Shown piece after piece: positions 17,564 to 48,813 of a DNA stretch of 64,000 nt. The first letter of the stretch is position 1. Every line of letters starts with the position of its first letter. Under the pieces are notes generated by a model. It ran no database searches and was not told the origin of the DNA. It worked only from the letters and a program-made list of their open reading frames with translations. Origin of the DNA: Norana najaformis (lineage: Eukaryota > Annelida > Clitellata > Crassiclitellata > Hormogastridae); contig OZ029914.1 of NCBI GenBank assembly GCA_964023275.1, positions 10,361,561-10,425,560 of the forward strand. The letters are read 5' to 3'. The translations under genes were made by a program, and so were the position numbers.

Positions 17564-20190
17564 CACTGGCCAACACATAATTTGTTGCCTCAAATGTTAG
17601 AACTGTTTCTGGGTATATTTGACCTGCTGATTCCAGAAAAGGCACCAGTTTTCTCCCAGCAGGTCTAGTTTTCGAGATATAGAACATTATGCCATATACC
17701 AGTCCTTGCCTCTGCTCGCCCATAAAACATAAGGCTATAGCTATAATTATGTAGTGCTCAATTTATTATGTGATACACTAAATAAACATAATAATACAAA
17801 TACTTAAAAGAAAATGGTAGTACCTGAAACTGTACTTATATGATACCAAACAGAACAAGTTTGTTATAAAAATTTCAAGTCATTCGACACCGAAGAAGCT
17901 CCTTTTGTACGATTTCCGAGTGTGGCATCTGCCGGAACAATCGCGCATAATATTCCAGCAATAGTCTGCCATCATGTGTGCATCCCATCTTCCTTGATAT
18001 CGATTTTCCATTGTTTTGATGTCTTCGTGAAATCTTTCACCTTGCTCTTCGCTGAAGTCACCAAGATTCTCTGGAAAGCGATCTAAGTGACTGTGGAGAT
18101 AATGGACTTTAATGCTCATGTTGCAGCCAAGCTTGTTGAAATGAAGAAGCATATCCTCTACTAGTTGTGCATAATTTCTGCCTTCTTGTTGCCAAGAAAA
18201 TTTTTAGTTACAAGAACAAAGGAAGACCAGGCACAAGATTCGATTTCATTCATTGATGGTATGAAAAGTGGGTCATTCATAAGTTGCCTGATCTGTGGAC
18301 CATCGAAGATTCCAGCCTTCAATTTTTCCATTGTAATTCCTGGTAACTTGTGTACTATGTATTCGAAGCATGAACCTTCTTTATTCAAAGCCCTGACAAA
18401 TTCTTTCATCAGGCCTAGCTTTATATGTAGTGGTGGCAGTATGATCCTATCTCGTGCCACCAAAGATTCCTTGATTACATTTTGAGCTCCAACCACCATG
18501 TCTTTCCTCGAAGGCCAATCTTTTCTTGTCCAATGTTCATGCTTGGCTCTACTGTCCCAAAGACACAAAAAGCAGGGATACTTTGTGTAGCCACTTTGTT
18601 GACCAAGGAGGAAATTTACCATCTTCAAGTCTACACAAATTACCCATTGATGTTCTTTGTATTTTATCTTTTCCAGTACTAAAGAGATGGCATTGTACTC
18701 TTCTTTCATCCTGGTGGAGTGACCGATTGGAATAGAACCAAATTTGTTGCCGTTATTTAAAAGCACACATTTCAGACTACGTTTTGAACTGTCGATAAAA
18801 AGACGCCACTCATCTGGGCTGTAATCCGACAGACCAATTTTCTTCAATAAGTTGCTGATGTCATTACAGAATACTAGGTTGTTGTCTTCGGTAAAGAATG
18901 GCAGCAAATCCTTTTCTCTGTTTCTATAAATTGTAATTTTCGTTCCAGGCTGATTTTGTGCATTCTTTTCCTTTAGTCTGGACGCAAGCAATTCAGAGGA
19001 CTCTTTGGAAAGATTTAAGTCCCTGATCAGATCACTCAACTCTTTTTGGTCAAAACGTTCACTGTGTGAAGTTGATTGGAAATCACTGTCACTGCCCCCA
19101 CTTTCTTCACTTTCGTCATCTTGTCCGATATTGGACATGCAAGTGTCATCGTCTGAGAGCTGAGGTAGTTCGCGAAAAGGTGGAACTGGTACAATATCCG
19201 AATGCGGAACAGGTCTCCTGGCTGAAGGTATATCAGGGTAAGACAACTTGTGACGATTATTTCGATTGATGCCTATGATATTAACCATACAAAAGTAACA
19301 GTCGTCGAAGTGGTTTATCTGTTCCCTCCAAACCATCGGTACACCAAATTTCAGGCAGCTTCTCTTTCCAATTGTCCAGTGGCGCAATTGTTCAATACAA
19401 GTTTTGCATACTGTATGAGGAGCCCATTGCTTATCTTGATCTCCAAGTTTGACACCAAAATAACCTACATATGCTCTTTTTACAAACTCAGAAATCGGTT
19501 TCCTGTTTGCTTTTAGTGTGTATTCCCCACAAATGTAGCAGAATATGTCTGGATGGTTAATGCAGCTCCGTCTGGAAGTAGCCATAACCTTAAGGATGTT
19601 CGCATCTGAGGAATTAAATGACTAAGCTAAAAAATAGTAAGAACATGTAGTTATTTAATGCTCACAATCACAGATTGTTCTTGCGACCAACTCTTAATAT
19701 GCCCTAAGACGACTGCGGCTGCTCTAGCTTTCAGGAGGCGGTTTATATAGGCTATAAATGCTGACTTCAGCATAATCTATTTACATAGTTCGAAACCATG
19801 AAACGCTGTATAAGCACAAATAAATTCTAAATGAGGCCATGAATTTAGTGCTGAGTAAGCTGTAGGCTACGGAATAGTTATTTCGTTGAATCAGCAATAT
19901 CTCAGCACGCGGCAAGATATGCTGATTTTACATTATAAGGATGTAGGCATTATATGAATCAGCAAGAATTATAATTAGCCATAAATAAAGCTTATTATGA
20001 CATTTTAGTTTTGCCAAAGACATCGTTTAAAGAGTGGACTGGGTTTTCTTTACAAAATCGACGATATCTCAGAAACTAGACCTGATGCACTCAATCCAAT
20101 GACATTTTCTGAATCAGCGCCCAAAATTACCCAAAGAACAGGTCTAAAACCGAAGGCAACAAGAAAAAAATTTTTTTCTGTTGGCCAGTG
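17564..20190 (-). mobile_element. DNA transposon, CACTGGCCAACA family, copy A
   Basis: 2627 bp with inverted ends CACTGGCCAACA, flanked by TTA on both sides (17561-17563, 20191-20193). Beyond the first 12 bp the two ends stay imperfectly alike for about 120 bp (TTGTTGCCT, GCTGATTC, CAGGTCTAGTTT, GAGATAT). It lies within the presumed long intron of gene 2 in the same orientation. It is nearly identical to copies B and C. I know 3-bp TWA duplications from PIF/Harbinger, but the encoded protein does not look like a Harbinger transposase. Confidence 0.95.
17880..19585 (-). pseudogene. Transposase-like gene of copy A, one frame break
   Basis: Starts at MATSRRSCINHPDIFCYICG and ends KRSFFGVE, about 567 residues overall. 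Frame is kept for 474 codons and lost by a 1-base deletion near 18160 (GCAGAAATTATG here, GCAGACAATTATG in B and C). An in-frame 3-base difference (NAQNQ against NALQ) is private to A. Zinc-like pairs lie at about residues 16/19 and 60/63, with HFDDCYFC near 92-99. The conserved acidic positions are FIDSS (about 264), CVDLK (about 318) and GERFH (about 516). A minus-strand TATA-like box lies at 19743-19749. Confidence 0.9.
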
Positions 20191-20193
20191 TTA

Positions 20194-21800
20194 TTAAACT
20201 ATTGGGAATGCTTGGATAAGGTCCAAGAAAGCAGTGAATTGTTCAACAAGTGCATAAAAGCATAAAACTTGGCATAGGTACTGAAAACATTATGCTGAAA
20301 TCTGAATCCAAATTTAAAGGAATGCAGCGATTTATATTTCCACCAAAATAGCCGGATCGCTTTCCAGGCACTGACCCTATCCCCTTCAACGCTATCACGT
20401 GAATTATCTTAGCTTCTAACTGAAAAAACAGAGACTTCTACTCGGCCCGAGTTTTGGTTTAAATTCCTTACCCCTGTTTATGCCGTGGCCGGCTGTTTCT
20501 CCGTCTCTCGGCGACGACCACTTCACGAAACACCTTCTCCACGGCCGGCTGCAACACAGAGTCACGATCGGTCTGCGACTTCCCTTATATCCTCTCTCTA
20601 CTCGGGCGTCTACTACCTCCATCCTGCTGACTGCCTGCTTTGTCCGACCCGGCTTAACCCGGTTCCAGCCAGACTTCTGCCTCCACCCCGCCTGCTGTAA
20701 ATGCCCCTTTCAGACGTTAGTTCGCATGCACAATCACTTATACCATACCCTCTGGCGTGTAAACGAATGTCAAGTAGGGCGGTTACTTAAATGTTATTCT
20801 GTCGGAGTCCGTTTCCTCATAATGCGTTGGATAACGTTAATCAGGCGGAAGGCAGGGATGAAAGGAGATCAAAGGAAGCATGATGGGGCGAATATTAGAC
20901 GATGAAACTTCATAATTAGAAAGTAGAAAATTAGAGGAGACGCAGAAATTCAGGAAAAATAGCTTACAAAATGAGAGCGCTCAGACACCACGACGCTGGT
21001 TGCCTGCTGATAAGTTTAGTTTGATATTGAGGTAAGGTTATTTGTAATTTATTCCGTAGATAATCGCACTCATTCAGCTTAAAGAGATTTTATGTCCGAA
21101 ATAGACGCCTCAGCTAATGCTTCAAGAAATCAGTGTGTAGTCTTACATCATTAAAAAATGTCATATAATTCCCATTTGATATTCTTTTGCTACCTAAACA
21201 CATGACTACTACTTAGATCTCATTCTATATCTCAGTAACTGGCTCCCACTGTTGGTTACCCCAGTGCTTGTATTTTCACAGATCCCTGTAGGTAAAGATG
21301 CAGTTAGAAGGTACCTTTCACCACAGCACAATTTCGTAGAAACGATGACTTGTTGAAGCCGTCACCGATTGGATTGTTCGTGAAACATGAAGGGCACTAA
21401 AAGCAGTCTACAAATATTTGAAGTTTGGAAACCAGAGCGAAGCGGATCTTGTCGCTTGGGCGACCGGGCGTTCTTGCCAGTGCAACGATCTCCGGTCAAC
21501 TGAAAAATATTGTTGTAGCGGTCACCTTCAAATGTCACAGATCGTCTGCTCGCCCAAACGAAAAGATCAGCCTCGCTCTAGTTTCAAAACTTCAAATAAT
21601 TGTAAACTGTTTCATTGCCTCTCGCGTTTCGCTTGACGAATGATCCAGTGCTCTCAAGGCGTAATGTTAATGTTATATCTAAAAGACTAGTTTGTATATG
21701 CGGGCATAAATTAAGTAAATACACATCTATCCACCTACTGTAACTTACAACAGTATTGCAACACGTAGCTGAATTTCAAAAACTATGAGATCTGCAAAAC
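20194..21800. other. no gene recognised; GC-rich patch at 20450-20720
   Basis: The patch contains GGCCGGCTG-type words and open frames in several phases without a recognisable domain. It could be promoter-like or part of an unknown element. The rest is anonymous. Confidence 0.4.
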
Positions 21801-21810
21801 GTAATCCTAC

Positions 21811-22052
21811 ATAAATATATACATCCACCCAAATATATATGCATCCATATATATATATATATACACAAATACGTATGTGCATGTGTGCGTATGTATACAC
21901 GGTGCATACATAGTCATACGCGCATACATGCATAATACATACGAACGTGCATACGGACGTGCATGCCTACGTAGAATATATGCATGCATAAATACAAACA
22001 TTCACACACATGCATACATGTATACATACATACAAACTTACATATATATATA
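21811..22052. repeat. compound (ATAC/CATA)n and (TA)n microsatellite
   Basis: Interrupted CATACATA and TATATA runs, with TGCATGCATA variants. Confidence 0.9.
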
Positions 22053-22059
22053 CAGCTGC

Positions 22060-23265
22060 TGGGTCCCACTCCAGGTATGTTGACACTGACTTGGGACATT
22101 GGTTTGTTCGTGTCGCCAGTTTATTAGTAGGCGTAACTCATGACATCAATTCATTTGATTCAGTTAAGCTTTGGCCTACAGTCTGCGTTCCGCGATGCCA
22201 TTGCTAGATAGTTCATATGACAGATACTGTATAACATTAGCATGAACCCAAATTTTGTCCAGCATTATGTTATCGGTGGAGCAAATGTTTAGAGTTTTCG
22301 TGTATAGCCTCAGAGTATTTACCAAACTTGACACTTTCCGTATACGTTTAAACTGCTCGTTTGCGATTATTTTAATTATATTCGCGTTTTAGGCCTACTG
22401 CACATTATGACTTTCTGCGGCCTACTTATCAACACAGCAAGTTAGGAAAGTATGAGGCAGTTTAACGTACAATGGAGTTAGCGTTAGATCAAATTACGTG
22501 GCATGTAGTGTTGTAACAGTGTTTATCTGTATAAATTGTATTTGCTTCTGTTTACTTGTAAGCCACTTTCTTATTTCAATATCGTATGGGTCTATCTCAT
22601 TGCTGTAATAAGAACATAATACGATACATGTTGTCAACTATGCATTAGCCTTAATTACAAAGACATTTGAGATTCTGTGTTGACAGTATAATGTTTTCTC
22701 AATTACAAACAAAATTATATTTACCTCTTATTACGCTGATGCCACCTTTTCTTCCAACCATTTAAAAAGGTTGTCCTGAATCGTTGGAGGAAACACATCG
22801 ACAGAGAGTTTTTTGTTAACGAAAAAGCTAAAAGCTATTCCAAAACTTCCGATAATCTGAAATCTTCAATAACGTTCTACGTGTTTCCGACAGAAAAGGA
22901 CTCGCGAAACGACCACAGTAGGCAGATTGAAAAGTCGCCTCAGCTGCGAAGCCACAGAACGATGGCCTGGCAGTCGGCTCCTCAACTGCAGACAAGACCA
23001 AAGTTTCAAGCAGTAACCTTGATCAAGTTGCAAACCTATGCGTTGCATGTATCGTAAGCCGGTGATTATTAGTAAGTGGGCGATTGTTGGCGAACGGATA
23101 TGGTTGATACTTTTGATTTAGGCTACTATCAATATGCTCAGTGCTAGTTCAACCGATCACGTTCTTGATTCGTGGCTGGTTAAATATTATCAGTTAAAAT
23201 GTGAAAAGTGCTTTTTCAGTTGATGCATTTGTGGTGTATGAAGTCGTTGATTTTTAGTCACCTAG
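22060..23265. other. no gene recognised
   Basis: Anonymous AT-rich sequence with one TAGGCCTA palindrome at 22390. No exon was seen. Confidence 0.4.
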
Positions 23266-23266
23266 T

Positions 23267-24760
23267 AAGTTAATTACTCTCAAAGAGATCGAGATAGCAA
23301 TCGAAAAGATGAAAAACAACAAAGCACCGGGACCACCTGGAATGACCACCGAAATGTTTAAAGCACTTGGACACGATGGCATCGAATGGCTATGCATCAT
23401 TTTAAACGACTTTATGAAGCAAGAAAGGGTGCCACAAGATCTGAAGGAAAGTGAAATAATAGCAATATATAAACAAAAACGAGATGTATTGGAATGTAGT
23501 AACTACAGAGGAATTAAATTGCGGGAAATTGGACTGAAAGTGTACGAAAGGGTGATCGAAGGGCGCATTAGGGAACGGGTCAGACTACATTATAACCAGT
23601 TTGGCTTTAGACCAGGTAGAGGCACAACGGATGCAATATGCATACTGAGACAGGTGCAGAAGAAAATACTAGAAGGAAACAGCAAGATATATTGGACTTT
23701 TGTAGATTTGAAGAAGGCTTTTGATAGGTCGTATATTGGAGTCTGAGGAAAAAGGGAGTATCGTAGAAAATAGTGCGACTGGTGAAATCAATGTACGAAT
23801 ATGCACAGACTTCGATGAGGAGCAATATAGGAAACACAGTAAAATTTGAGATTCGAGTGGGTGTACATCAGGGACCCTGCCTGAGTCCTCTGCTGTTCAT
23901 CATAGTAATGGATGCCATATCAGAAAATGTGAGAAGTACCATGGGATATGTTGTATGCTGATGACCTGATAGTGGCAGACGACGCAGCGACAAAGATACA
24001 AGGGCGTTTCACTGATTGGCAGAGAGCACTGGAGAGCCAAGGTCTTAAAATAAATATCAATAAAACAGAGACCATAGTATGCTCCAAAATGGATGAGACA
24101 CTTGTGGTCAAGGACATCACAGGAAATGCATTGAAACAAGTAGAAACCTTTAAATATTTTGGGTCGATAATGAATGCTAAAGGAGAATGCAAACATGATG
24201 TTAAGAACAGGATCAAGGCAGCATGGCAAAAATGGAAAGACCTATCAAGTGTATTATGCGATGTCAAAATGCCGGTTCAACTCAAAGGAAAGGTGTAGAA
24301 AGCAATGATAAGACCAGTGATGATATACGGAGCAGAAGCCTAGGCCTTGACGAAAGAGGAGAAGCTGCTGGAGAGAATAGAAATGAAAATAATGCGATGG
24401 ATGCTTGGAATCTCACTGAAAGACAGGAAAAGGAATGAGTATATCCGACAAAAATTGCTAGTGTCATGTATATCTGACAACGTACGAGAAGCCAGGCTGA
24501 GATAGTATGGTCATGTGACGAGGAGAGAAGAGGAAAACTGCATTAAAAAAATTAAGACAGAAGAGGTCTACGGACGCCGCAGTCGGGGACGACAAAAGAA
24601 GAGATGGGGAGACATGATTCAACAAGACCTAAAGCTTCTCAGGCTGAAGAAAGAAGATACTGGAGATAAAAACAAATGGAAAAGAAGGATTCATGTGGCT
24701 GACCCCTCCCCTAGGAGAGATTAATGCCAGCCAGAAGGAAGGACAAATTAATTAATCCCA
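23267..24760 (+). mobile_element. RTE-like LINE, 5'-truncated, reverse transcriptase to 3' end
   Basis: Order of motifs: KMKNNKAPGPPGMTTEMFKA, LKVYERVIEGRIRERVRLHY then NQFGFRPGRGTTDAICILRQ, TFVDLKKAFDR, VGVHQGPCLSPLLF, YADDLIVADDAATK (the active-site YADD), and a basic C-terminus YGRRSRGRQKKRWGDMIQQ. The endonuclease half is missing. Frame breaks and stops occur near 23740, 23940 and 24298, so it is dead, but the reading is well preserved and the copy is fairly young. A more decayed relative lies at 54470-55020. The clade name is inference. Confidence 0.88.
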
Positions 24761-24867
24761 GGTCACGTTGAATTAGTGGTGTTCTGCGTGTCGAAGACCA
24801 GATCTAAGGAATTCCAAAATGATGTCAACATTTATTCGGATTTTAAAGGGACTATATAAATAGCCAT

Positions 24868-25680: not shown

Positions 25681-25684
25681 TACA

Positions 25685-26695
25685 TAATCAATTCTATGAA
25701 CCAAGGAAAAGTAACTGCTCTCATTCTTCTTGACCTATCTGCCACTTTCAATACTGCTGATCACATGATAATCCTTCATCGCCTCGAACAAACCAGTGGA
25801 GAGCGGGGCCGAAAAGTGCAGTTGCTCTCCATTGGTTTGCATCTTACCTCCACCCTCGTACTCAATCAGTCTCTACCAACCAAATCAACTCCGCGCCCAC
25901 TCTCTTGAATTGTGGCGTTCCACAACGTTCGTATTGGACCCGTTCCTATTCACACTGTACACGACTCCACTTGGTTCACTACCTTCTGATAGCTGTCTTT
26001 ACCACTTGTACGATGATGATACTCAGCTATTCCTCTTATTTGGCAGTTGTGCGCCTAATTGTGCTCTTCAACGACTTGATTCAGTTTTTGATGAAGTTCA
26101 GTCTTAAGTGGCTAGTAACAAGCTTCTTCCGAATCATTCAAAGACTGAATCCCTTCTTCTAGGCACTAGCCAACAACTCCATAAATTTGGTTACCTCACA
26201 TCTATTCAACTGGGTGGCTTGCTTGTTAATCGTACTGACTGTGCACGCAATCTAGGTGTAACATTTGACTTCATTGTGTCATTTTCTAAACATGCCGTCG
26301 CCATGTGCATATCAGCTCATTTTCACATACGGGATATGCGTAGAATCAGATCTCTTTTGCCTCATACTGTCTTGGTCCCCTAGTTAATGCATTGCTTTCC
26401 AGCAGGTTTGACTACTGTAACTCACTGCTTATTGGCATTGCAAAGAAGGATCTACACAAACTGCAAATGGTTCAAAAATCTCAGGCCAGAGCCATAACAC
26501 AAACACCTAAGTATCAGCATATCAATCCAATACTCCATTCCTTACACTGGTTGTCCATCGAACAAAGAATCCAGTTTAAAATCAGTGTTACAGTTCATAA
26601 AGTACTACATCTGAATCAGCCGACCTATCTCTGCTCTGTTCCATGCTCAACCGTCAAACCAACAAATATTACACTCCAACAATGAACAACAAATA
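25685..26695 (+). mobile_element. CR1/Jockey-like LINE, reverse transcriptase to C-terminus
   Basis: Shifting frames read ALILLDLSATFNTADHMI, NCGVPQRS, a YDDDTQLF active-site variant (normally YADDTQLF), SARNLGVTFD-like DCARNLGVTFDF, SRFDYCNSLLIGIAKKDLHK and LHSLHWLSIEQRIQFKI. The 5' half is absent, and several frame breaks show it is dead. Confidence 0.85.
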
Positions 26696-27236: not shown

Positions 27237-29423
27237 TCTCATCAACAGGTTTCTTGCCTCCTTGATATTACAAATACTGCCAGTACAAATGACTGTCTGC
27301 TCGTTTGTGGCGACTTTAACTGTCCAGGCAGTGATGAAAATCGTATTGACCACTGGGTAGATGATCTATTAATATTACTCGATCTCAACCAGCAAGTTTC
27401 AACTCCAACTCGCGGTGGAAATCTGTTGAATTTACTAATCATTGATAATTCTGAGACCGTTGGAAATGTTCGGGTCATTGATGTTGGCTGTATCTGTGAC
27501 CATAGTCTTATCACTGCTACACTAGCAGTGGGTACGTCCAGCCATCCAGTTGCTTTTTCCTTTCGCCCAATCAAGCAGATCAACCCAGTCGATTTTGAGC
27601 AGGCGCTGTTTGGTGGAAGAAAACTCTGCAGGAAAGCGATCGAATTGCCTGCCTAGGTTTTTCAAATTTTTGTGCTGCTAAAATATCTAACTTAAAGTCT
27701 GCCATATCAAAGCGTAGGTCTGGGTTAGACAGAGCAGAACTGTTTCCTGATGTTAGATATCCTGTTAATGGGTTTTATACCTTAGCTTCCGTTAGAGTAC
27801 AGGAAGTTGCTAGACTCATCGGAAATGTTCCATCTAAATCATCACACCTGGACTTCGTTCCAACTTCCTTTATTAAATCCTGTTCAAATGTGTTTTCTAT
27901 TTACACTGCTCATCTGGCTAATCTCTCCTTTTGTGAAGGTCGTTTTTCCTCTGCTTTTAAAACTGTACTTGTGATACCTCTACTAAAATCCTGATCTTGA
28001 AAAGGACTGTCTGGCTAATTATAGGCCTATTTCCGATCTGAATAATATCTCCAAACTGCTTGAACGCCTATTTCTCATACGTCTTCGGGGCATGTAACGT
28101 CTTCTCCGAATTTTAGTCCTTTTCAGTCGACTTATCGTAAACATCATTCAACTGAGACTGCTCTTAGTGGCACACTTAACAATGTATTTAATTCAATGGA
28201 TTCTGGCAGAGCAGCTCTTCTTATATCTCTTGATTTGATTGCTGCATTTGATACTGTAGTTCAGGGTATTTTGCTGTCTCGACTCTACACATCTTTTGGA
28301 ATTACTGGTCCCGCTCTTCACTGGATATCTTCTTATCTCAATGATCGTTCCCACACAGTGGCAATAAACTCATCTCGCTCTGATCCTATTGCCTGTCGTT
28401 CTCCTATTTTCAATCTTTATTTCACCCATTTGTCAAATTGCCCGCATGCATAATACATTGGACCAGCAATATGCTGATGATACTCAACTCTACGTTGCTC
28501 TCTCTGCAACAGATCCCTCACCTGAAACTGAACTTGAACACTGTTTGTCCTCTGTTCACACTTGGTTCTGCTTTAATGAACTTGCAATCAATCCAGATAA
28601 GTCAGGGACAATTCTTGTCACAATTTACCACCGTATGCAGTCTTTCATTCGCATTCTTCTATTTTTGCTTCTATTTTTTTCTATTGTTGCAGGAACCAAA
28701 ATCCCACTATCAGACAAAATTCAAACTCTTGATGTCACCCTTGACAACTCGCTTACTATGTATCTTCGATTTGCAGGTCTTGTTTCTATCATATATCAAG
28801 GCATTTCGTCACAAAAGACATTCTCTGACTAATGACATGGCTAAAACAGTAGCATGTGCATTTGTTGGTTCTCGATTAGACTATGCAAATGCAGTGTTGT
28901 ATGGTATATCTTCCCTTAATGTAAAAAAGCTCCAGAGGGTTGAAAACTCTCTTTCTAGGGTTGTTACATGTTTTTCTTCATCAAATGCATTAGATCGCCT
29001 TCGTGAACTTCACTGGCTTCCTGTTGAATGGCGTATTAAGTTTAAAATTGCATGCTTGACCTTTAAGGCTTAGAACACTGGCCTTCCATCATATCTTAAT
29101 ACTTTTGCTGACTCCATATCGCCCTCCCAGATTCTTGCGTTCTTCTGATACCGGTTTCTTGCAAGAATCTAGATTCAGGACAATTGTAAGATCATGTGCC
29201 TTTTAGCTGTTGTGCTCCTCGCATTTGGAATCGTCTGCCACAAAAGGCCCGACTTGCACTCTCGCTATCATCTTTTAAAACACTTGTTAAGACTCGCTAC
29301 TTCATCCTGGCTTTTGCATGATTCCATCCTGGCCCCTAGCGAACATACATCCTCGCCTCAGATTGAGGTGTACTGACATTGCCCGCGTTACAAGTGCTTT
29401 AAATAAATAAATAAATAAATTTC
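27237..29423 (+). mobile_element. CR1/Jockey-like LINE with endonuclease, polymerase and (AAAT)n tail
   Basis: Domain order is endonuclease C-terminal half (LLVCGDFNCPGSDENRIDHW, CDHSLITATLAV), polymerase start (VRVQEVARLIGNVPSKSSHL), STETALLS-like region, LISLDLIAAFDTV, QQYADDTQLYVALSATD and a C-terminus with SRLDYANAVLYGISSLNVKK and LHWLPVEWRIKFKIACLTFK. It ends in AAATAAATAAATAAAT near 29400, the microsatellite tail usual for such LINEs. The 5' end is lost and multiple frame breaks are present. Confidence 0.88.
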
Positions 29424-30300: not shown

Positions 30301-30321
30301 GTTAGACAAGATTAATCTTAC

Positions 30322-31226
30322 TTGTTGCTGTAGACCGTTTAATTATTGCAAATTTTTTCTTCATGTTTTCATCAATTGGATCAACTTTGTGATCTTCAGA
30401 TGTTTTTTGGCTCTTGTGTGCTCTACTGCAGTCGTCAAAGTGACTTTCTTCACAATTAGTGCAATACATCGTAGCTGTTGAAAATTTGTCGTTCTCATTG
30501 TCTATGTCAGTTTTGCAAGAATCAAGAATTATGGCAGAGTCCGTTGATTTTGAAGAAATTTTATCTTTCAGCAATTTTTTCTTCATGGTTTCATCAATTG
30601 GAACAACTTTGTGATCTTTAGATATTTTCTGTATCTTGTGTATTCTACTGCAGTTGTCACAGTGACTTTCTTCACAATTAGTGCAATACATCGTAGCTGT
30701 TGGAACTTTGTCGTTTTCAATGTCTTTGTCAGTTTTGCAAGAATCGCAGAAAAAAATGTCTGGTGATTTTGAAGAAAATGTCTCTTCTAGCATTTTTTTC
30801 TTCACGTTTTCATAAATTGGAACAACTTTGTGATCTTTAGATATTTTCTGTCTCTTGTGTGCTCTACTGCAATCGTCACAGTGACTTTCGTCACAATTAG
30901 TGCAATACGTCGTAGCTACTGGAATTTCACTTTCCTTTTTATCGTTGTCGGCAGCACAACTTTCACATAAAATGGAATCAAGAGCCAAGCCACACATTTT
31001 TTGTTCGAATTAGCTGGCGAATTATACTGTTTATTGGAATATACTCTATTCTATTCTTGAAAAAGCGGAGTTCATTTAAACAAAATGGGCATAATATACG
31101 GTCTTGTAGTTGCCTAGGAAACACACTGCTCAAGCATTTTAAGCAAAATGTGTCACCACAAGGCAACATTCTTGGATCAGTGAAGGTCTCTGTAAAAATC
31201 CTACATTCAATATCAAAATGATCCAT
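30322..31226 (-). CDS. Gene 2 first exon: degenerate RING and three B-box zinc fingers (TRIM-like)
   Basis: Start chosen at the ATG of MDHFDIECRIF (31226). The RING reads TFTDPRMLPCGDTFCLKC and then ILCPFCLNEL. The expected second cysteine is F and the expected histidine (GHTF) is D, so two zinc ligands are missing. Three B-box units follow in tandem (ATTYCTNCDESHCDDCSRAH and two relatives). The third lacks two cysteines. RING and B-boxes are in different frames: six A residues near 31005 where five would keep frame, so either a real frameshift or a homopolymer error. The exon ends at a strong donor A|GTAAGA (30316-30321) in phase 1, matching the CARD exons. RINGs of this kind normally recruit E2 enzymes, but this one may not. 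Confidence 0.8.
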
Positions 31227-36310: not shown

Positions 36311-36687
36311 CACCGTCCGCGATCGTTTCTGTAAAATGCGTCCTAATAAACAACGCTTGTAGGACCTCAACCATTGCTGTTTCTCCTGAAATTAAAACTA
36401 TCAAGTCATTAACTTGTAGTTTTCATTAAAGTACACTGGTCAACATAGAATTCGTTACTGACTGGAAAAGGCCCTAATGTGTAGCATCTTGGTGTGCTGA
36501 ACACGAATATAACCATAAAATTTTTTTATTGGCTCTCGTTTTGAAAATATTTCATATAGTTCATTTTTTATGTTTCACCATGTAAATTTATGCAGTAGGA
36601 CTGCGACAATATCCTAAATAAGTCTAGAATGATGTAATATTCCACCTCATTGCATAATCCCATCATGGACACATCATGCACAGTTGA

Positions 36688-36767
36688 TTACGTCATTTTC
36701 TGATGCAATGTAAAACTACAGCCAGTCGGCTGCTGACGTAAGATGACGTCAGCAGTGTACTATATAA
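36688..36767 (+). promoter_or_regulatory. CRE-like sites and TATA box of copy D
   Basis: TTACGTCA at 36688-36695, TGACGTAA near 36733, the full CRE palindrome TGACGTCA at 36744-36751 and TATATAA at 36761-36767, about 117 bp before the ATG at 36884. This is a compact core-promoter arrangement. Function is inferred from the motifs alone. Confidence 0.65.
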
Positions 36768-36883
36768 AGCGAGTCGGAACGGTTGAGCATTTACAATATT
36801 ACAGACTTTGTGCGAGACAGTTTAAGTTACTGTTTTATAAAACTATTATTACTTTATCCATTTAGATACAATACAGAACAGTA

Positions 36884-38573
36884 ATGCCTCGGAAGTGCGT
36901 AAATACTGTGGACAACTTTTGTTACATTTGTGGGGAAGTGACATTTGCCAACCAGAAGAAACGTATCACTTATCAAGTCAAGAAGGCATATCATGCTTAC
37001 TTCGAATGCAAGGTTGGTGACCAAGACAAGCCATGGGCCCCGCATATATGCTGTGCTACATGTACAACACAGCTTTCACAGTGGTTGAATGGCAAAAGAC
37101 CATCAATGCCGTTTGCAGTTCCCATGGTGTGGAGAGAGCAAAGCAACCACGTAGATGACTGTTACTTCTGCTCGGTTCCTCCTCTTTCCGGTGGAATAAC
37201 GAAGCAAAAGAAGTCGACAATAGTCTACCCAAACATTCCGTCAGCATTGAGACCAGTTCCACATGGTGATGGACTTCCTATTCCAGAACCTCCAGCAGAA
37301 TATATTTTCCTTGATTCATCTGATGAGGACAAGGGTGAGCCGACATGTTCTTCTCCTGGTCCGTCAGCGTGCAGTGATCCCGATTTTCACTGTGGTGCAT
37401 CATCAACCCCACAGAATAACACAGGAAGAACTAAATGACCTTGTTCGTGATTTGGACTTATCCAAAAACAAGGCAGAATTGCTAGGATCAAGACTCCAAC
37501 AATGGAATCTTCTAGAAGAAGATGTCACAATTACTTCATATAGAAAGCGCCATCAGCAGTTGGAACCTTTCTTTATGAAGGAAGGTAATCTGGTATTCTG
37601 TTCCAATATTGACGACCTCATGAATGCCTTACAGATCACTCATGACCCACAAGAATGGAGACTCTTTGTAGACTCTTCAACACTGAGTCTTAAGGCTGTG
37701 CTTTTGCACAATGGAAACCGTCTTCCATCTATTCCATTAGCGCATGCTGTCCACATGAAAGAGACATACGATAACCTAAAACAGCTACTGCATTCCATTG
37801 ACTATAACAGGTACAAATGGCACCTGTGTGGTGATTTGAAGGTAGTTGCCATTTTAATGGGACTGCAGCAAGGATATACAAAATATATGTGTTTCTTGTG
37901 TGAGTGGGATAGCCGAGCAAGAGAGTTGCACTACGTGCGGAAGGAATGGACTCCCAGACAAAACATGGCAGTTGGACAGAAGAATATCCAGCACCCAGCT
38001 CTGGTCGAGGCTCACAAAATCCTACTACCACCCCTTCACATCAAACTAGGCTTGGTGAAGAACTTCGTGAAAGCCATGGACCGCACTTCGCCAGCTTTCC
38101 GATACCTGCATGAAAAATTCCCTCGACGCAGCGAAGCAAAGATTAAAGATGGAGTTTTTGTGGGTCCTCAGATTAGAGAACTCTTCAAAGATGACCGCTT
38201 CAACGACTTGCTGGAGGGTGATGCGAAACAAGCATGGAATGCTTTTCGTCTAGTGTCTACAGACTTTCTGGGGAATGTTAGGGCAGAAAACTACAAGGAA
38301 CTAGTAGAAGACATGCTCAAGCAGTACCAGAAATTTCGCTGCAATATGTCTCTGAAGATGCATTTCCTTCATTCCCATATGGATTTCTTCCCTGACAACT
38401 GTGGTATGGTTAGTGACGAACATGGCGAACGTTTTCATCAAGATATCGCAACAATGGAGCAAAGGTACCAGGGAAAATGGTCCACTACAATGTTGGCTGA
38501 CTACTGCTGGACACTCCGCAGAGATGCTCCCGAACAGCTGTACAAGAGACAGGCAAAAAAATCTAAGAACTAG
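36884..38573 (+). pseudogene. Transposase-like gene of copy D, one frame break
   Basis: Begins MPRKCVNTVDNFCYICGEVT and ends KRQAKKSKN, about 562 residues. One frame change near 37400-37430 separates residues 1 to about 180 from the rest. Conserved with copies A-C: CYICGE, VGDQDKPWAPHICC, VPMVWREQSNHVDDCYFC, LFVDSSTLSLK, CGDLK, GYTKYMCFLCEWDSRA, ILLPPLHIKLGLVK, GPQIREL and EHGERFHQDI. The acidic D, D, E positions are all retained. Confidence 0.88.
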
Positions 38574-38919
38574 TCTATGACCTGGTTTTTACAAATATTA
38601 ACTGTAAGTGTATCACTATTGGCATGCATTGTGCGATATAAAATTACTTCATTTCAGATTACAAAAAAACTAGAGCCAATTCGGCATTTTCACTGTCATA
38701 TTCGTGTTCAGCACATACAAATTGATAAGAACTGACTAATTTCATTTCAGAAACATGACTTTTGTAAAAATTTGTTGTCCAGTGTTATTTGAAACGTGTA
38801 CAGCAGATGCCCAAGGTCTAACTGGGATACGGGCGAGCATTCAAAACAGGCGAAACTATTAATATTTTTAAAAGCTTCGCATTACACACAATATATACAA
38901 AGCGCCATGTCTCATGTCT

Positions 38920-39523
38920 TCTAGAATATCTTTAGGAAACCCACTGATGTTCAGTCGCCTTGATTACTGTAACTCACTTCTTGCTCGTACCACAAATTCA
39001 AACATGCAGAAACTCCAAAGAGTTCAGAACTCCTTGGCTAGAGCCATAATAAATACTTCAAAATATGAGCATATAACCTCTGTGCTTAAATCTTTACATT
39101 GGCTTCCTGTTCAGCAAAGGATTTGTTTCAAATTAGGACTTACAGTATATAAAACATTGAACTCTGGCCAATCCCAATACTTAAAATCCCTCCTTAATCC
39201 CCAGACTTACCACTATTCTGCAAGGTCATCTGATTGTCTTTCTCTGGTCATACCTTGGATTAGAACTGTTCTCGGTAAACGGCCTTTTTCAGTTGCCGGA
39301 CCTAAATTTTGGAACTTCCTCCCTGTATCCCTTCGTTCTGCTCAATCGCTTCTGTCATTCCATTCTCAGCGTGAAACTTACCTTTTTCAAATTGCTTATC
39401 TACCATAGACTGCCTCTGTCTTGTGGACTGACCTTCTGGATGTTGACCCGATTGTGGCTTGGTTTTGGTGCGCCATCGGTTGACACCTTGTTCATTAGAC
39501 ACCGGCGCATTAGAAGTTACTAA
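38920..39523 (+). mobile_element. LINE 3' end, nearly intact C-terminus
   Basis: An open frame of about 160 codons reads SRLDYCNSLLARTTNSNMQK, LKSLHWLPVQQRICFKLGLT, then VLGKRPFSVAGPKFWNFLPV and ends in YLFQIAYLP. It is followed by the conserved 3' block (39411-39523, GATGTTGACCCGATTGTGGC). The 5' end is truncated. Transposon copy B is inserted at the very end of this unit. Confidence 0.85.
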
Positions 39524-39972
39524 TTACACTGGCCAACAGAAAAAAATTTTTTTCTTGTTGCCTTCGGTTTTAGACCTGTTCTTGGGGTAATTTTGGGCGC
39601 TGATTCAGAAAATGTCATTGGATTGAGTGCATCAGGTCTAGTTTCTCAGATATCGTCGATTTTGTAAAGAAAACCCAGTCCACTCTTTAAACGATGTCTT
39701 TGACAAAACTAAAATGTCATAATAGGCTTTATTTATGGCTAATTAATTATAATTCTTGCTGATTCATATAATGCCTACATCCTTATAATGTAAAATCAGC
39801 ATATCTTGCCGCGTGCTGAGATATTGCTGATTCAACGAAATAACTATTCCGTAGCCTACAGCTTACTCAGCACTAAATTCATGGCCTCATTTAGAATTTA
39901 TTTGTGCTTATACAGCGTTTCATGGTTTCGAACTATGTAAATAGATTATGCTGAAGTCAGCATTTATAGCCT

Positions 39973-39979
39973 ATATAAA
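39973..39979 (+). promoter_or_regulatory. TATA box of copy B
   Basis: TATATAA 157 bp before the ATG at 40136. The same box is at 46631-46637 in copy C and at 19743-19749 (minus) in copy A. Confidence 0.55.
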
Positions 39980-40135
39980 CCGCCTCCTGAAAGCTAGAGC
40001 AGCCGCAGTCGTCTTAGGGCATATTAAGAGTTGGTCGCAAGAACAATCTGTGAATGTGAACATTAAATAACTACATGTTCTTACTATTTTTTAGGTTAGT
40101 CACTTAATTCCTCAGATGCGAACATCCTTAAGGTT

Positions 40136-41843
40136 ATGGCTACTTCCAGACGGAGCTGCATTAACCATCCAGACATATTCTGCTACATTTGTGGAGAATA
40201 CACACTAGAAGCAAACAGGAAACCGATTTCTGAGTCTGTAAAAAGAGCATATGTAGGTTATTTTGGTGTCAAACTTGGAGATCAAGATAAGCAATGGGCT
40301 CCTCATATAGTATGCAAAACTTGTATTGAACAATTGCGCCACTGGACAACTGGAAAGAGAAGCTGCCTGAAATTTGGTGTACCGATGGTTTGGAGGGAAG
40401 AGATAAACCACTTCGACGACTGTTACTTTTGTATGGTTAATATCATAGGCATCAATCGAAATAATCGTCACAAGTTGTCTTACCCTGATATACCTTCAGC
40501 CAGGAGACCTGTTCCGCATTCGGATATTGTACCAGTTCCACCTTTTCGCGAACTACCTCAGCTCTCAGACGATGACACTTGCATGTCCAATATTGGACAA
40601 GATGACGAAAGTGAAGAAAGTGGGGGCAGTGACAGTGATTTCCAATCAACTTCACACAGTGAACGTTTTGACCAAAAAGAGTTGAGTGATCTGATCAGGG
40701 ACTTAAATCTTTCCAAAGAGTCCTCTGAATTGCTTGCGTCCAGACTAAAGGAAAAGAATGCACTTCAGCCTGGAACGAAAATTACAATTTATAGAAACAG
40801 AGAACAGGATTTGCTGCCATTCTTTACCGAAGACAACAACCAACCTAGTATTCTGTAATGACATCAGCAACTTATTGAAGAAAATTGGTCTGTCGGATTA
40901 CAGCCCAGATGAGTGGCGTCTTTTTATCGACAGTTCAAAACGTAGTCTGAAATGTGTGCTTTTAAATAACGGCAACAAATTTGGTTCTGTTCCAATCGGT
41001 CACTCCACCAGGATGAAAGAAGAGTACAATGCCATCTCTTTAGTACTGGAAAAGATAAAATACAAAGAACATCAATGGGTAATTTGTGTAGACTTGAAGA
41101 TGGTAAATTTCCTCCTTGGTCAACAAAGTGGCTACACAAAGTATCCCTGCTTTTTGTGTCTTTGGGACAGTAGAGCCAAGCATGAACATTGGACAAGAAA
41201 AGATTGGCCTTCGAGGAAAGACATGGTGGTTGGAGCTCAAAATGTAATCAAGGAATCTTTGGTGGCACGAGATAGGATCATACTGCCACCACTACATATA
41301 AAGCTAGGCCTGATGAAAGAATTTGTCAGGGCTTTGAATAAAGAAGGTTCATGCTTCGAATACATAGTACACAAGTTACCAGGAATTACAATGGAAAAAT
41401 TGAAGGCTGGAATCTTCGATGGTCCACAGATCAGGCAACTTATGAATGACCCACTTTTCATACCATCAATGAATGAAATCGAATCTTGTGCCTGGTCTTC
41501 CTTTGTTCTTGTAACTAAAAATTTTCTTGGCAACAAGAAGGCAGACAATTATGCACAACTAGTAGAGGATATGCTTCTTCATTTCAACAAGCTTGGCTGC
41601 AACATGAGCATTAAAGTCCATTATCTCCACAGTCACTTAGATCGCTTTCCAGAGAATCTTGGTGACTTCAGCGAAGAGCAAGGTGAAAGATTTCACCAAG
41701 ACATCAAAACAATGGAAAATCGATATCAAGGAAGATGGGATGCACACATGATGGCAGACTATTGCTGGAATATTATGCGCGATTGTTCCGGCAGATGCCA
41801 CACTCGGAAATCGTACAAAAGGAGCTTCTTCGGTGTCGAATGA
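40136..41843 (+). pseudogene. Transposase-like gene of copy B, one frame break
   Basis: Same start and end as in copies A and C. The frame is lost by a 4-base insertion (CCAA) near 40843, inside GACAACAACC. The upstream part keeps the ZAD-like cysteine pairs and HFDDCYFC. The downstream part keeps FIDSS, CVDLK, the CFLCLWDSRA zinc-like motif and GERFHQDI. Confidence 0.9.
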
Positions 41844-42162
41844 CTTGAAATTTTTATAACAAACTTGTTCTGTTTGGTATCATATAAGTACAGTTTCAGG
41901 TACTACCATTTTCTTTTAAGTATTTGTATTATTATGTTTATTTAGTGTATCACATAATAAATTGAGCACTACATAATTATATCTATAGCCTTATGTTTTA
42001 TGGGCGAGCAGAGGCAAGGACTGGTATATGGCATAATGTTCTATATCTCGAAAACTAGACCTGCTGGGAGAAAACTGGTGCCTTTTCTGGAATTAGCAGG
42101 TCAAATATACCCAGAAACAGTTCTAACATTTGAGGCAACAAATTATGTGTTGGCCAGTGTTA

Positions 42163-42545
42163 CCAGTGAAAGGAGGCGGTTGGCTTTCCATGGAAATCAA
42201 CAATGTATAATGAAAGCCTAAAACGCATTAGAAAAATTCTTTTCCATGCGAAAAGTTATAGTGCGCAATTGTGGAATGGCTTAGATGGAGAACGGAGAGG
42301 GAGTTGCAGTTGGAGGGCGTAACCATGTGTTGCCAATGTTGCATTCCGCTTCGTTATCCTGAGCAACACTGAACGTGGTGTCAACCGTCAACTTTGGCTG
42401 GAACTCTAGTTACGGTTTCTTCATGTGCGGAGACTCTAAATCTGCTAACTTTCCCGGTTAGCTAAGAATTAGTTGTTTATAACACACGAACTTAGGCTAT
42501 CGAAGAGTGCCACTTAGAATGCGCTAAAAACTGTTCAGTTGCACA
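42163..42545. other. no gene recognised
   Basis: Right flank of copy B. The LINE into which B inserted does not visibly continue here. Confidence 0.4.
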
Positions 42546-42660
42546 TATGCATACATACATCCATACATCCATTCATACATGCATACATAAATGCATACAT
42601 ACATAGGTGTGTACGAACCTACATATATACAAACAAAAATATACATACATACATACCTGA
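42546..42660. repeat. (CATA/CATC)n microsatellite
   Basis: Interrupted ATACATACATCC units. Confidence 0.9.
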
Positions 42661-44225
42661 AATTGACTGATCTTTTAGTTGACGTACTTGTTGTTCCAGC
42701 AATCTCGTCATGTTTAGTAGTGTCGTGTAGTTTTCTAACTCTTGATTCATTGCTGTTTATAATTTTGAAACATTCCAGTAATTATTGAAGCCTATTATAA
42801 AATTGTAATATAGGTAAAATGGCGGAATATGGCCCTGGATGACATTGTATGTTCTGTATATATGGTGAAGATATAATATTTTCAGTTTATGTATCGCTAA
42901 GATTAATCATAAGACTAAGACAACTGCATATATGGAAAAGCAAAAGTGAAACGAAGATTGGAATAATCAGTACCTTGCCGACATAGGTTAACCACCAAAA
43001 AGTATTACTACCAAAAAGTATTAAATGGGTGTATTCACTTGGACGTTTCAATCGATATTGCGCTCGGTATCCTATAGAGATTGTTGAAATATGGTGCAAC
43101 TATCGTATTAAGGAGTTTAGAGAATAAATGATAGCAGGGAGTTACGTTCCTTGCCAGAATAACTGAAAATTTATGAAAATTTATCCAGTGAAATAGATGA
43201 AGTCAAGCGACGACGAGGGTCTAATTGATACGCTGAGACTAAGAAATTAACACTTAACACCAACGGTCGCATTTTATGCTGGTTGAAGAGAGGACACATT
43301 GATCTTGGAATATGTCCTTTCTCTTACTTTCTCATTCACTCTCCCTTCCTCTCAAACGACGTCGTCATCGTCACTGTCACCGTCGTCGTCGCTGTTAATG
43401 TCGCCATTAATGCAAAAATGAACCTCAACTATATGCATCGTCTGTATATATTAAAGCATAAACCAAACACACGACGTACAAAAATGATACTCCTGTCATA
43501 TTACGTACAAAAATAATACCCTTGTTATTTGGCTCATTTTGAAACTAAAATTATTGTATAGAAATTATCCTAGGGAGACAATGGGGCCTCTATATTCTCG
43601 CCTAAATAATACAGACAAATTACATTAAGCTCAGACTTGATCCTGGAATACTGGAATGGCAGTAATTGGATTTCTTAAAAAATTAGTCCCGCGTTTTTCG
43701 CTTTTTCAGTCGCAGAAAGTATTATCTGAACGCCATAGCTAATAATCATTAAAAATTTGTGTTATCTTAGGCATTATGTTTCTAAAATATCCTTTAATAA
43801 GACAAACGGAGTTTAAATTGCATGCATCAGCACTGCTTTTAAACCATACTGCCGTCTGAATTTGCACAGAACAATGCTTTTAATGTTTTTAATTTGATTT
43901 TCCAGCTGAGCAACAGCAAATTTTAATTTTTTCATTTGTTTCCTGCTTTGTCTTTTTGTTCATGTGAAAGTCGAATCTTAGAGAAAAGTCAGTTTATCTT
44001 TTATAGTTGATTATTAAATTCATACTGCTTTCTAAAAGCAGCTGTTTCCTTTGAGATATTCTTGAAAACTTTACTGTTTCCGAATCCATTAATCTGATGA
44101 ATGTGTCATGGATTCTTTCCGATCATCAAGACAAATATTAACAGTTAGTCGCGTATTTAGCATAAATATAGCCTATTACGATAAATATGCAAACAATACG
44201 TTGACCTCGTAGCACTGTCTGCTTG
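42661..44225. other. no gene recognised; 3' side of the CARD pseudo-exon
   Basis: The part at 44030-44225 resembles the sequence downstream of the intact CARD exon (55540-55725), sharing AAGCAGCTGTTT on the plus strand. The rest is anonymous. Confidence 0.45.
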
Positions 44226-44528
44226 TTAGGTTGGTTGCTCACGGATTCCAGATGCTTGTTCTTGGTTGTCCATGAATTCGAGTAGGTATTGATTTTCTTT
44301 AATTAAGGCTTGACGTACAAAGAAAAATGCTCTATGATATTGAATGGCTGAGTAGAGCCCGACATCGACTCTTTGGTGTCGGATTTTCGTGCTCGATCTC
44401 CAACTACTGGTCAACACTGATCACTTTTTCTTGAATCAACCAATCAGTGGAGGCGATTCAACATCAGACACAAATTTTTGCGAAGACGACCAATATGCGA
44501 CGCTTTAACACATCATTTGTCAAAGAAC
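44226..44528 (-). pseudogene. decayed copy of gene 1's terminal CARD exon
   Basis: Begins after an acceptor (TGCTGCAG) with SLTNDVLKRR, matching SLTNDEVKKR of the intact exon at 55726-56045, and ends RAFFFVRQALIKENQYLLEF then a stop, matching RAFLVVREALVEKDHYLLES. Between them there are about three frame changes and an in-frame stop. Its downstream flank also aligns, so this is a segmental duplicate and not a processed copy. Confidence 0.85.
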
Positions 44529-44529
44529 C

Positions 44530-45325
44530 TGCAGCAGGGTATGAATTCTCTGCAACGAACTAACGTTTTAGCGTTCATCGTGTTAATGTTATGCTATGCA
44601 AATATTTCAGCGCCACAGAAAAGATGAGACGGGGCAGTTAAAACCCTGGCGCCATATCAAATCAAAAACCACTTTGTTTAGACAGTTTCGGTGCCAGGTC
44701 AGAATCCGGGGAATCAAGAAGTGGTGACATCGTGATGCTAAGATGGAATTCAAATTTGATTGGCTAAGGCCGTAGAATGTGCAGGAGCTGAAGAAAACTG
44801 CAATAGGTTGAAAAGTTCGGTTGTCAATCTGAAGGGAAACCCTCCACGAGAGAGACAAGTGGAGGAGAGCTTGCACTGACAGACTGACACACGCACATTC
44901 ACTCACTCATTCCAACTCTTCAAGTCCCTCCGCCACTGTGTACCTCTTTCTCTTTTTCACTTTCTCTCACTCTCTTTACTGCCCGACGACGTTCTTAGTC
45001 CTGTTACATCTTTCTGCGGTCAATCTACCAGAATACCTAATTGGGCTGCCCTCATCGGATAAAATGAAGCCCAAGGACCGGGTTGGCTCAGACTGCAGTC
45101 ACAAAAAGATGCGTCATTGCCGCTGTTGCTTTAACGTTGATAAGCATTGGCAACAAATAATACCTCAGAATTAAGATCACATGAAATCACGGCAGTTCAG
45201 CTAGAGTTAGCACTCGTCCGTTCAAATGAGAAACGGCATATTTTGACCCTCTCAGACTTTTTGTTGCAAGTTTACATTGTCATTTGTATTTCATAGCAGT
45301 TAACAAATCATTCAGAGACTGTAAT
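44530..45325. other. no gene recognised
   Basis: No further paralogous TIR exon was found beside the CARD pseudo-exon. Short open frames lack domains. Confidence 0.4.
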
Positions 45326-45329
45326 GTTT

Positions 45330-45560
45330 TTTCACTTTGTGCGCGAGGATGCCGGTTCGCATACCAGACCGTGGCTTATTTTGGAGATTTGAATCAGGAA
45401 CTAGCACGATCGGTGAACTTGGACCTTAATGACATGGGATCCATTCAAACGGAAAGCGGTGGCGAAGGATCTCACTCGATAATTTCATTGAAAATGAGTA
45501 GGTTTCGAGGCCATTCGGTCGCTGTGAAAAAATGTTTACGTTAACATTTACATTTCCACA
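45330..45560 (+). repeat. SINE with tRNA-like B box and CATTTA tail
   Basis: Longest copy of this family. A B-box-like GCCGGTTCGCATACC lies near 45350, a body contains GCGGTGGCGAAGGATCTCAC, and the 3' end GGCCATTCGGTCGCTGTGAA is followed by ACATTTACATTT. Confidence 0.7.
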
Positions 45561-45564
45561 GTGT

Positions 45565-46187
45565 CATCGAGTCGAATAAGCGCTGCCAATATCCCCTCAT
45601 TCGGACCGTAACGGCATCTTCTGACTGACTGTGGTGAATATATTGCGACACTGGAAGCTCAATACAAAAGTAGCGCAAAAGAAATGAACTATTGTATTTT
45701 ATCATATAAAAGCAACTAATCTGTTAACTCAGTGCCTCCAATGATCAATCATTTTGGCAAGACTTGGAACCCTAATCATACGCACATACAAAAATGCACA
45801 AGCCTACTGGATCTTTGCCTCACTGAGAATGTTGAAGAAAATGCTGATGACTGAAAGTATAAGTTAAACGGCTTCTGAGTAACGCAATATGATATAGTAC
45901 TGTATAATATACAAGAAATCAATAATTAGGCTGATTGAGTAAACCTCTCAGCGGTTACAAAGCAAGTGGAAAATTACGGTAGTGCACAGCCGCAGATAAA
46001 TGATCTTTGCAAATCTTTGCAAGACTAATTCGTTGGTACACGAAAAATTGCATACTGGGGTTGTGTACATCGATGATTATGCAAATGAACAAGTAATGTA
46101 AATATTTTCTTGACTAGATTTAATGGAGATTTCATTGATGATAGCCTTAGAGGCGTATGAATACACTCCTTTTACTATCCTTATAAA
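45565..46187. other. no gene recognised
   Basis: Left flank of transposon copy C, AT-rich. Confidence 0.4.
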
Positions 46188-46190
46188 TAA

Positions 46191-48813
46191 CACTGGCCAA
46201 CAGAAAAATTTTTTTTCTTGTTGCCTTCGGTTTTAGACCTGTTCTTGGGGTAATTTTGGGCGCTGATTCAGAAAATGTCATTGGATTGAGTGCATCAGGT
46301 CTAGTTTCTCAGATATCGTCGATTTTGTAAAGAAAACCCAGTCCACTCTTTAAACGATGTCTTTGGCAAAACTAAAATGTCATAATAAGCTTTATTTATG
46401 GCTAATTATAATTCTTGCTGATTCATATAATGCCTACATCCTTATAATGTAAAATCAGCATATCTTGCCGCGTGCTGAGATATTGCTGATTCAACGAAAT
46501 AACTATTCCGTAGCCTACAGCTTACTCAGCACTAAATTCATGGCCTCATTTAGAATTTATTTGTGCTTATACAGAGTTTCATGGTTTCGAACTATGTAAA
46601 TAGATTATGCTGAAGTCAGCATTTATAGCCTATATAAACCGCCTCCTGAAAGCTAGAGCAGCCGCAGTCGTCTTAGGGCATATTAAGAGTTGGTCGCAAG
46701 AACAATCTGTGAATGTGAGCATTAAATAACTACATGTTCTTACTATTTTTTAGGTTAGTCATTTAATTCCTCAGATGCGAACATCCTTAAGGTTATGGCT
46801 ACTTCCAGACGGAGCTGCATTAACCATCCAGACATATTCTGCTACATTTGTGGGGAATACACACTAAAAGCAAACAGGAAACCGATTTCTGAGTTTGTAA
46901 AAAGAGCATATGTAGGTTATTTTGGTGTCAAACTTGGAGATCAAGATAAGCAATGGGCTCCTCATACAGTATGCAAAACTTGTATTGAACAATTGCGCCA
47001 CTGGACAATTGGAAAGAGAAGCTGCCTGAAATTTGGTGTACCGATGGTTTGGAGGGAACAGATAAACCACTTCGACGACTGTTACTTTTGTATGGTTAAT
47101 ATCATAGGCATCAATCGAAATAATCGTCACAAGTTGTCTTACCCTGATATACCTTCAGCCAGGAGACCTGTTCCGCATTCGGATATTGTACCAGTTCCAC
47201 CTTTTCGCGAACTACCTCAGCTCTCAGACGATGACACTTGCATGTCCAATATTGGACAAGATGACGAAAGTGAAGAAAGTGGGGGCAGTGACAGTGATTT
47301 CCAATCAACTTCACACAGTGAACGTTTTGACCAAAAAGAGTTGAGTGATCTGATCAGGGACTTAAATCTTTCCAAAGAGTCCTCTGAATTGCTTGCGTCC
47401 AGACTAAAGGAAAAGAATGCACTTCAGCCTGGAACGAAAATTACAATTTATAGAAACAGAGAAAAGGATTTGCTGCCATTCTTTACCGAAGACAACAACC
47501 TAGTATTCTTAATGACATCAGCAACTTATTGAAGAAAATTGGTCTGTCGGATTACAGCCCAGATGAGTGGCGTCTTTTTATCGACAGTTCAAAACGTAGT
47601 CTGAAATGTGTGCTTTTAAATAACGGCAACAAATTTGGTTCTATTCCAATCGGTCACTCCACCAGGATGAAAGAAGAGTACAATGCCATCTCTTTAGTAC
47701 TGGAAAAGATAAAATACAAAGAACATCAATGGGTAATTTGTGTAGACTTGAAGATGGTAAATTTCCTCCTTGGTCAACAAAGTGGCTACACAAAGTATCC
47801 CTGCTTTTTGTGTCTTTGGGACAGTAGAGCCAAGCATGAACATTGGACAAGAAAAGATTGGCCTTCGAGGAAAGACATGGTGGTTGGAGCTCAAAATGTA
47901 ATCAAGGAATCTTTGGTGGCACGAGATAGGATCATACTGCCACCACTACATATAAAGCTAGGCCTGATGAAAGAATTTGTCAGGGCTTTGAATAAAGAAG
48001 GTTCATGCTTCGAATACATAGTACACAAGTTACCAGGAATTACAATGGAAAAATTGAAGGCTGGAATCTTCGATGGTCCACAGATCAGGCAACTTATGAA
48101 TGACCCACTTTTCATACCATCAATGAATGAAATCGAATCTTGTGCCTGGTCTTCCTTTGTTCTTGTAACTAAAAATTTTCTTGGCAACAAGAAGGCAGAC
48201 AATTATGCACAACTAGTAGAGGATATGCTTCTTCATTTCAACAAGCTTGGCTGCAACATGAGCATTAAAGTCCATTATCTCCACAGTCACTTAGATCGCT
48301 TTCCAGAGAATCTTGGTGACTTCAGCGAAGAGCAAGGTGAAAGATTTCACCAAGACATCAAAACAATGGAAAATCGATATCAAGGAAGATGGGATGCACA
48401 CATGATGGCAGACTATTGCTGGAATATTATGCGCGATTGTTCCGGCAGATGCCACACTCGGAAATCGTACAAAAGGAGCTTCTTCGGTGTCGAATGACTT
48501 GAAATTTTTATAACAAACTTGTTCTGTTTGGTATCATATAAGTACAGTTTCAGGTACTACCATTTTCTTTTAAGTATTTGTATTATTATGTTTATTTAGT
48601 GTATCACATAATAAATTGAGCACTACATAATTATAGCTATAGCCTTATGTTTTATGGGCGAGCAGAGGCAAGGACTGGTATATGGCATAATGTTCTATAT
48701 CTCGAAAACTAGACCTGCTGGGAGAAAACTGGTGCCTTTTCTGGAATCAGCAGGTCAAATATACCCAGAAACAGTTCTAACATTTGAGGCAACAAATTAT
48801 GTGTTGGCCAGTG
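46191..48813 (+). mobile_element. DNA transposon, CACTGGCCAACA family, copy C
   Basis: 2623 bp with inverted ends CACTGGCCAACA and TAA duplications at 46188-46190 and 48814-48816. GCTGATTC occurs three times near the left end (46262, 46417, 46485) and once inverted near the right end (48744-48751). A hairpin (AATCAGCA-TATCT with its complement) spans about 46453-46491. Confidence 0.95.
46795..48497 (+). pseudogene. Transposase-like gene of copy C, one frame break
   Basis: Cleanest copy, about 567 residues with a single 1-base deletion near 47510 (ATTCTTAATG here, ATTCTGTAATG in A and B). Cysteine pairs at about 16/19 and 60/63 have the spacing of a ZAD-type zinc domain. HFDDCYFC follows at 92-99, an acidic serine-rich linker at about 140-180, and then a C-terminal region with LFIDSS, CVDLK, YPCFLCLWDSRAKHEHW, LPPLHIKLGLM and GERFHQDI. 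This layout suggests an RNase H-fold transposase with an insertion between the second and third acidic residues. The fold is inferred. Confidence 0.9.

Follow-up and report, generated by a model that had tools for sequence, protein, structure and literature searches.

The 64,000-nucleotide stretch of the Norana najaformis contig OZ029914.1 analysed here (the window, on which all positions are counted) contains four DNA transposons, copies 1–4, that belong with high confidence to Chapaev3, a group of the CMC/Transib clade, and are of the kind carrying its own transposase, here broken in frame; copies 1–3 form a young family, while copy 4 is divergent. The find is ordinary in kind, as the elements are members of a published group. 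A preliminary description of the window had reported a cut-and-paste DNA transposon present in several copies and flanked by TWA target duplications, which is confirmed, and a transposase that could not be classified, which is not: its features fit those published for Chapaev3 and its predicted fold is of the Transib/RAG1 type. The preliminary description had named as its refutation a strong match to a known superfamily having these ends; such a match is now provided by features and fold, named Chapaev3 elements being compared by their description rather than by the Repbase sequences themselves.

Copy 1 is located at 17564–20190 (2627 bp, with its gene on the minus strand), copy 2 at 39527–42159 (2633 bp, plus strand) and copy 3 at 46191–48813 (2623 bp, plus strand). 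They are indeed three near-identical copies of about 2.63 kb, with an identity over aligned bases of 99.2% between copies 1 and 2, 99.7% between copies 1 and 3, and 99.4% between copies 2 and 3, and with four gap openings in each pair. Their inverted ends and exact 3-bp duplications were also correctly described: TTA at 17561–17563 and 20191–20193 around copy 1, preceded by A and followed by T; TTA at 39524–39526 and 42160–42162 around copy 2, preceded by A and followed by C; and TAA at 46188–46190 and 48814–48816 around copy 3, preceded by A and followed by T. The flanks are identical on both sides in all three copies (TTA/TTA, TTA/TTA, TAA/TAA), and the probability of an exact 3-bp flank match by chance, calculated from the base composition, is 0.018 per element. 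An exact search of the window for the 12-mer CACTGGCCAACA gives six matches, all of them at ends of copies 1–3; if up to two mismatches are allowed, there are 16 matches, whereas 100 shuffles had 3.6 on average and always fewer than 16. Copies 1–3 also have, within their ends, imperfect inverted repeats of about 100 bp, 71–72% identical by blastn and in agreement with a local alignment. Copies 1–3 are real, young elements, because the copies are near-identical, CACTGGCCAACA is limited to their ends, and their flanks are exact repeats.

Shorter or non-autonomous relatives were searched for in the window as pairs of ends with up to three mismatches each, spanning 60–4000 bp, and pairs were retained when their 3-bp flanks were identical or their ends had no more than three mismatches in total. 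Beyond copies 1–3, one pair with agreeing flanks was found (CGC, 46999–50394, three mismatches at each end), which was rejected as a further element and is taken as a chance match, and the end-like matches at 26164 and 44405 have no partner passing this filter.

The preliminary count of three copies holds for this family and missed a fourth, divergent element at 36434–38784 (copy 4, plus strand, 2351 bp), whose ends are CACTGGTCAACA and, inverted, CACTGGACAACA. Its DNA is 53% identical to copies 1–3 over aligned bases, and its protein is about 50% identical by tblastn to P0001, an unbroken 567-amino-acid (aa) homologue that shares 95% identity with the 474-aa copy 1 piece. The closest match of the 436-aa piece of copy 4, among the best 120 of 2975, is another homologue, P0121, with 99% identity over 89% of the query. 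On account of these identities and of this closest match, copy 4 is, as judged from sequence comparison, a member of a second, divergent family. Inverted termini 5'-CAC and GTG-3' are present in all four copies; in the A-TWA-T context, seven of the eight flanking positions fit (left A in 4/4, right T in 3/4), and exact TWA repeats flank three of the four copies, the exception being copy 4.

Each of the four transposase genes is split by tblastn into two pieces in different frames, with one apparent frame change. In copy 1 the gene, stop codon included, extends over 17880–19585 on the minus strand and changes frame near P0001 residues 462–469, as determined by tblastn and by the open reading frame (ORF) at 18161–19585. 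The other three, on the plus strand and determined by tblastn and the list of ORFs, lie at 40136–41843 in copy 2, with the change near P0001 residues 208–235, at 46795–48497 in copy 3 (near P0001 residues 211–238) and at 36884–38573 in copy 4 (near P0121 residues 176–180). The frame changes of copies 2 and 3 are close together within the gene, and those of all four copies may be due to decay or to assembly indels. The unbroken homologues P0001 and P0121 have 563–567 aa; the single gene of about 567 residues described earlier therefore has the right length for the family, although no copy in the window has its gene unbroken. Inside copies 1–3 there is no second ORF of at least 150 aa except pieces of the one gene, shorter or split ORFs being outside the scope of this search.

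Searching with the 474-aa piece of copy 1 retrieved 2369 proteins at E up to 0.001, and the 436-aa copy 4 piece retrieved 2975; the two sets may overlap, and the top 120 matches from each were used. Among these matches, which include proteins of Hydra vulgaris and Helobdella robusta, the names, where present, are "uncharacterized", "hypothetical" or "unnamed", in keeping with the preliminary remark on similar proteins in invertebrate gene sets, and none of the 240 carries a precomputed Pfam domain. Residues were aligned in 219 of the 240, those of 500–700 aa (21 were dropped for length): D264, D318, C337, C340, L385, H386, H499 and E513 are kept in all 219, H494 and E516 in 218, in accordance with the paired cysteines and the D, D, E positions noticed previously. 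These residues make up the motifs C(2)C (C337–C340), LH (L385–H386) and H(4)H (H494–H499) and the DDE set of D264, D318 and E513 or E516. At the N-terminus, C16, C19, C60, C63, H92, C96 and C99 are kept in 201–217 of the 219, and this cysteine- and histidine-rich domain is, from its sequence, probably zinc-binding.

Forty of the aligned homologues were compared with Pfam at E up to 1, with HMMER filters dropping most matches above 0.1, and 21 families were matched. The commonest N-terminal match is zf-AD, in 22 of the 40 (best E 3.5e-05; P0001 scores 16.5 bits, the cut-off being 28). Each of the remaining 20 families is matched by one to five homologues, with a best E of 0.00067 (squalene/phytoene synthase, one member); they include RAG1_imp_bd in one homologue (E 0.16) and Myb_DNA-bind_7 in two (best E 0.1), the latter taken as chance. 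For the catalytic part of the transposase there is no Pfam model. In viral contigs, 23 pattern matches were obtained and no relative was confirmed.

The core of the transposase is predicted to adopt the fold of Transib (HzTransib) and RAG1 over about 350–370 residues, and the comparison of the predicted structure, which spans residues 174–563, points to an RNase H core of the CMC/Transib/RAG1 type. Besides the predicted fold, DDE residues with C..C and H....H between the second D and E are shared with Transib and RAG1, whereas the identity in the structural alignments is 9–15% and copies 1–3 have no second gene of at least 150 aa. Harbinger-type, Zator and CACTA entries are missing from the 50 structures listed, which excludes none of the three. 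A search of the PDB by sequence with a single transposase piece gave nothing useful. The transposon looked new because its catalytic part lacks a Pfam model, sequence leads to no solved structure and its relatives have no informative names; the impression of strangeness stems from this gap in the domain databases and not from the element.

The published descriptions agree with these features. Chapaev3 elements (Repbase; Merrow, Garfield and Conan, PMC4079192) resemble the present ones in the TWA duplication with A before and T after, backed there by empty sites; in the 5'-CAC..GTG-3' ends, which characterise Chapaev transposons in general; in the C(2)C, LH and H(4)H motifs, reported for the Garfield transposase; in the DDE residues; in the single transposase (556 aa in Garfield, 567 aa in P0001); and in having hosts in several phyla. 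They differ in length, the elements here being 2.35–2.63 kb versus 2.29 kb for Garfield, and, while most Chapaev3 have one exon, Merrow and Garfield have two, in contrast to the one reading frame found here (PMC4079192). PMC4411706 groups Chapaev and Chapaev3 with Transib in a single superfamily next to RAG1 and attributes to Chapaev3 an N-terminal Chapa zinc-finger domain. The N-terminal domain found here, with its conserved cysteines and histidine and its weak zf-AD match, may be of this type. The CMCT clade has C(2)C and H(3–4)H motifs in common and duplications of 2 to 5 bp (PMC12730594); Chapaev3 is listed in a blowfly (PMC3630058), and passages of PMC6004678 deal with CMC in general terms only. 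A literature search with the end sequence as letters matched 189 papers, and none of the 20 titles listed concerns transposons.

Several observations weigh against Chapaev3 membership. The right TTA of copy 2 is followed by C instead of T, and the flanks of copy 4 (A-GTA and TTA-T) are not identical. Other states of HzTransib have far lower scores (6pqn_A 11.6, 6pqy_A 11.1, 6pqr_A 10.9), level with the P element, and a sequence profile retrieves from the PDB neither RAG1 nor Transib, its one match being a FYVE-domain protein (E 0.31). The commonest N-terminal Pfam match is zf-AD and no named Chapa domain, and DUF1280 (PF06918), assigned to Chapaev (PMC3985635), is matched by none of the 40 homologues at E up to 1. 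The missing DUF1280 match fits the merely distant relation of Chapaev3 to other Chapaevs (PMC4411706), membership not being proven thereby.

Among the alternatives, a separate, unnamed superfamily within the CMC/Transib clade, sharing TWA duplications and CAC ends with Chapaev3 without belonging to it, is improbable. It would agree with the lack of a Pfam model over the catalytic part and with the absence of both PF06918 and PF02992 from the 21 families of the 40 homologues; PF02992, a Transposase_21-type profile that clusters with CACTA (PMC3985635), need not cover animal CACTA. However, length, single gene, TWA duplications, A and T flanks, CAC..GTG ends and the three motifs all match the description of Chapaev3, whose tree includes Hydra magnipapillata and Helobdella robusta (PMC4079192, figure 1 legend), and homologues were found here in H. 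vulgaris and H. robusta. A Zator or CACTA/EnSpm element with 3-bp duplications is very unlikely: the CACTG-type ends resemble CACTA and the duplication length lies within the range given above for the CMCT clade, but the profile of neither is among the families listed for the 40 homologues, and a compact 567-aa single-gene transposase fits Chapaev3 better. Zator, which the preliminary description wished to see excluded, has target duplications of 3 bp (its profile, PF07592, is presumably of the transposase-36 type), and CACTA is not known to follow a TWA target rule. PIF/Harbinger, whose target duplications are also TWA, can be practically dismissed, as it is contradicted by the RAG1/Transib-like predicted fold. 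Its transposase profile is absent from the 40 homologues at E up to 1, in line with the lack of its motifs remarked on earlier, and, as regards its second, Myb-like gene, copies 1–3 have no other ORF of at least 150 aa beyond pieces of the one gene. Transib proper, which has target duplications of 5 bp, was rejected, since the 5-bp flanks differ in copies 1–3 (AATTA/TTATT, AATTA/TTACC and AATAA/TAATT).

Elsewhere in the window, the ORFs 38914–39408, starting about 130 bp after copy 4, and 28438–29073 match no Pfam family at E up to 0.01 and presumably represent ends of reverse transcriptases of non-long terminal repeat retrotransposons. On the minus strand, the TRIM-like ORF 30305–30997 contains two B-box zinc-finger stretches (zf-B_box, E 2.8e-12), 12724–13206 shows a weak match to CARD, a death-fold domain (E 0.00084, below the Pfam cut-off), and the ORF 5556–6437 has 94 homologues, many with the NHL repeat PF01436, but itself matches nothing in Pfam at E up to 0.01.

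The ends, flank repeats, DDE and C2H2 residues and predicted fold of the Chapaev3 elements allow a mechanism to be proposed by analogy with Transib and RAG1, in which zinc binding, hairpin chemistry, target palindrome and activity are presumed. A transposase dimer would pair the two 12-bp ends and the subterminal repeats; D264, D318 and E513 or E516 would excise the element through a nick followed by a hairpin on the flank at the CAC border, and the freed 3' ends would be joined to a near-palindromic A-TWA-T site at points staggered by 3 bp, generating the TWA duplications. The high identity of copies 1–3 indicates recent transposition of their family; given the broken frames, these copies, provided that their sequences are correct, would depend on transposase supplied by another source.

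A tree was constructed from 22 proteins, comprising 15 of the 16 organism-labelled homologues listed and seven unlabelled ones; the one left out, P0097 (571 aa), is labelled as coming from a Pseudomonadota metagenome bin and probably belongs to an animal contig that was binned wrongly. Two deep clades are separated with 100/100 support, one holding P0001, near copies 1–3, and the other P0121, near copy 4. Reptile proteins are placed next to Hydra ones (82/57) and frog proteins next to leech ones (91/76), with support short of what the tree itself counts as strong; these pairings are in keeping with, and no test of, the horizontal transfer of Chapaev3 among vertebrates and invertebrates that is the theme of PMC4079192.

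An apparently unclassified transposon is in this way resolved into a described group, though common domain databases miss it, and its predicted RAG1/Transib fold makes it available for study as a compact, distant relative of the V(D)J recombinase, the cutter of antibody genes. It can be suggested only tentatively that one animal genome holds two deep Chapaev3 lineages, one of them amplified very recently and perhaps acquired through horizontal transfer, and that a P0001-like homologue could be active and become the first Chapaev3 transposase studied in the test tube, as a RAG1-fold enzyme with a 3-bp and not a 5-bp stagger.
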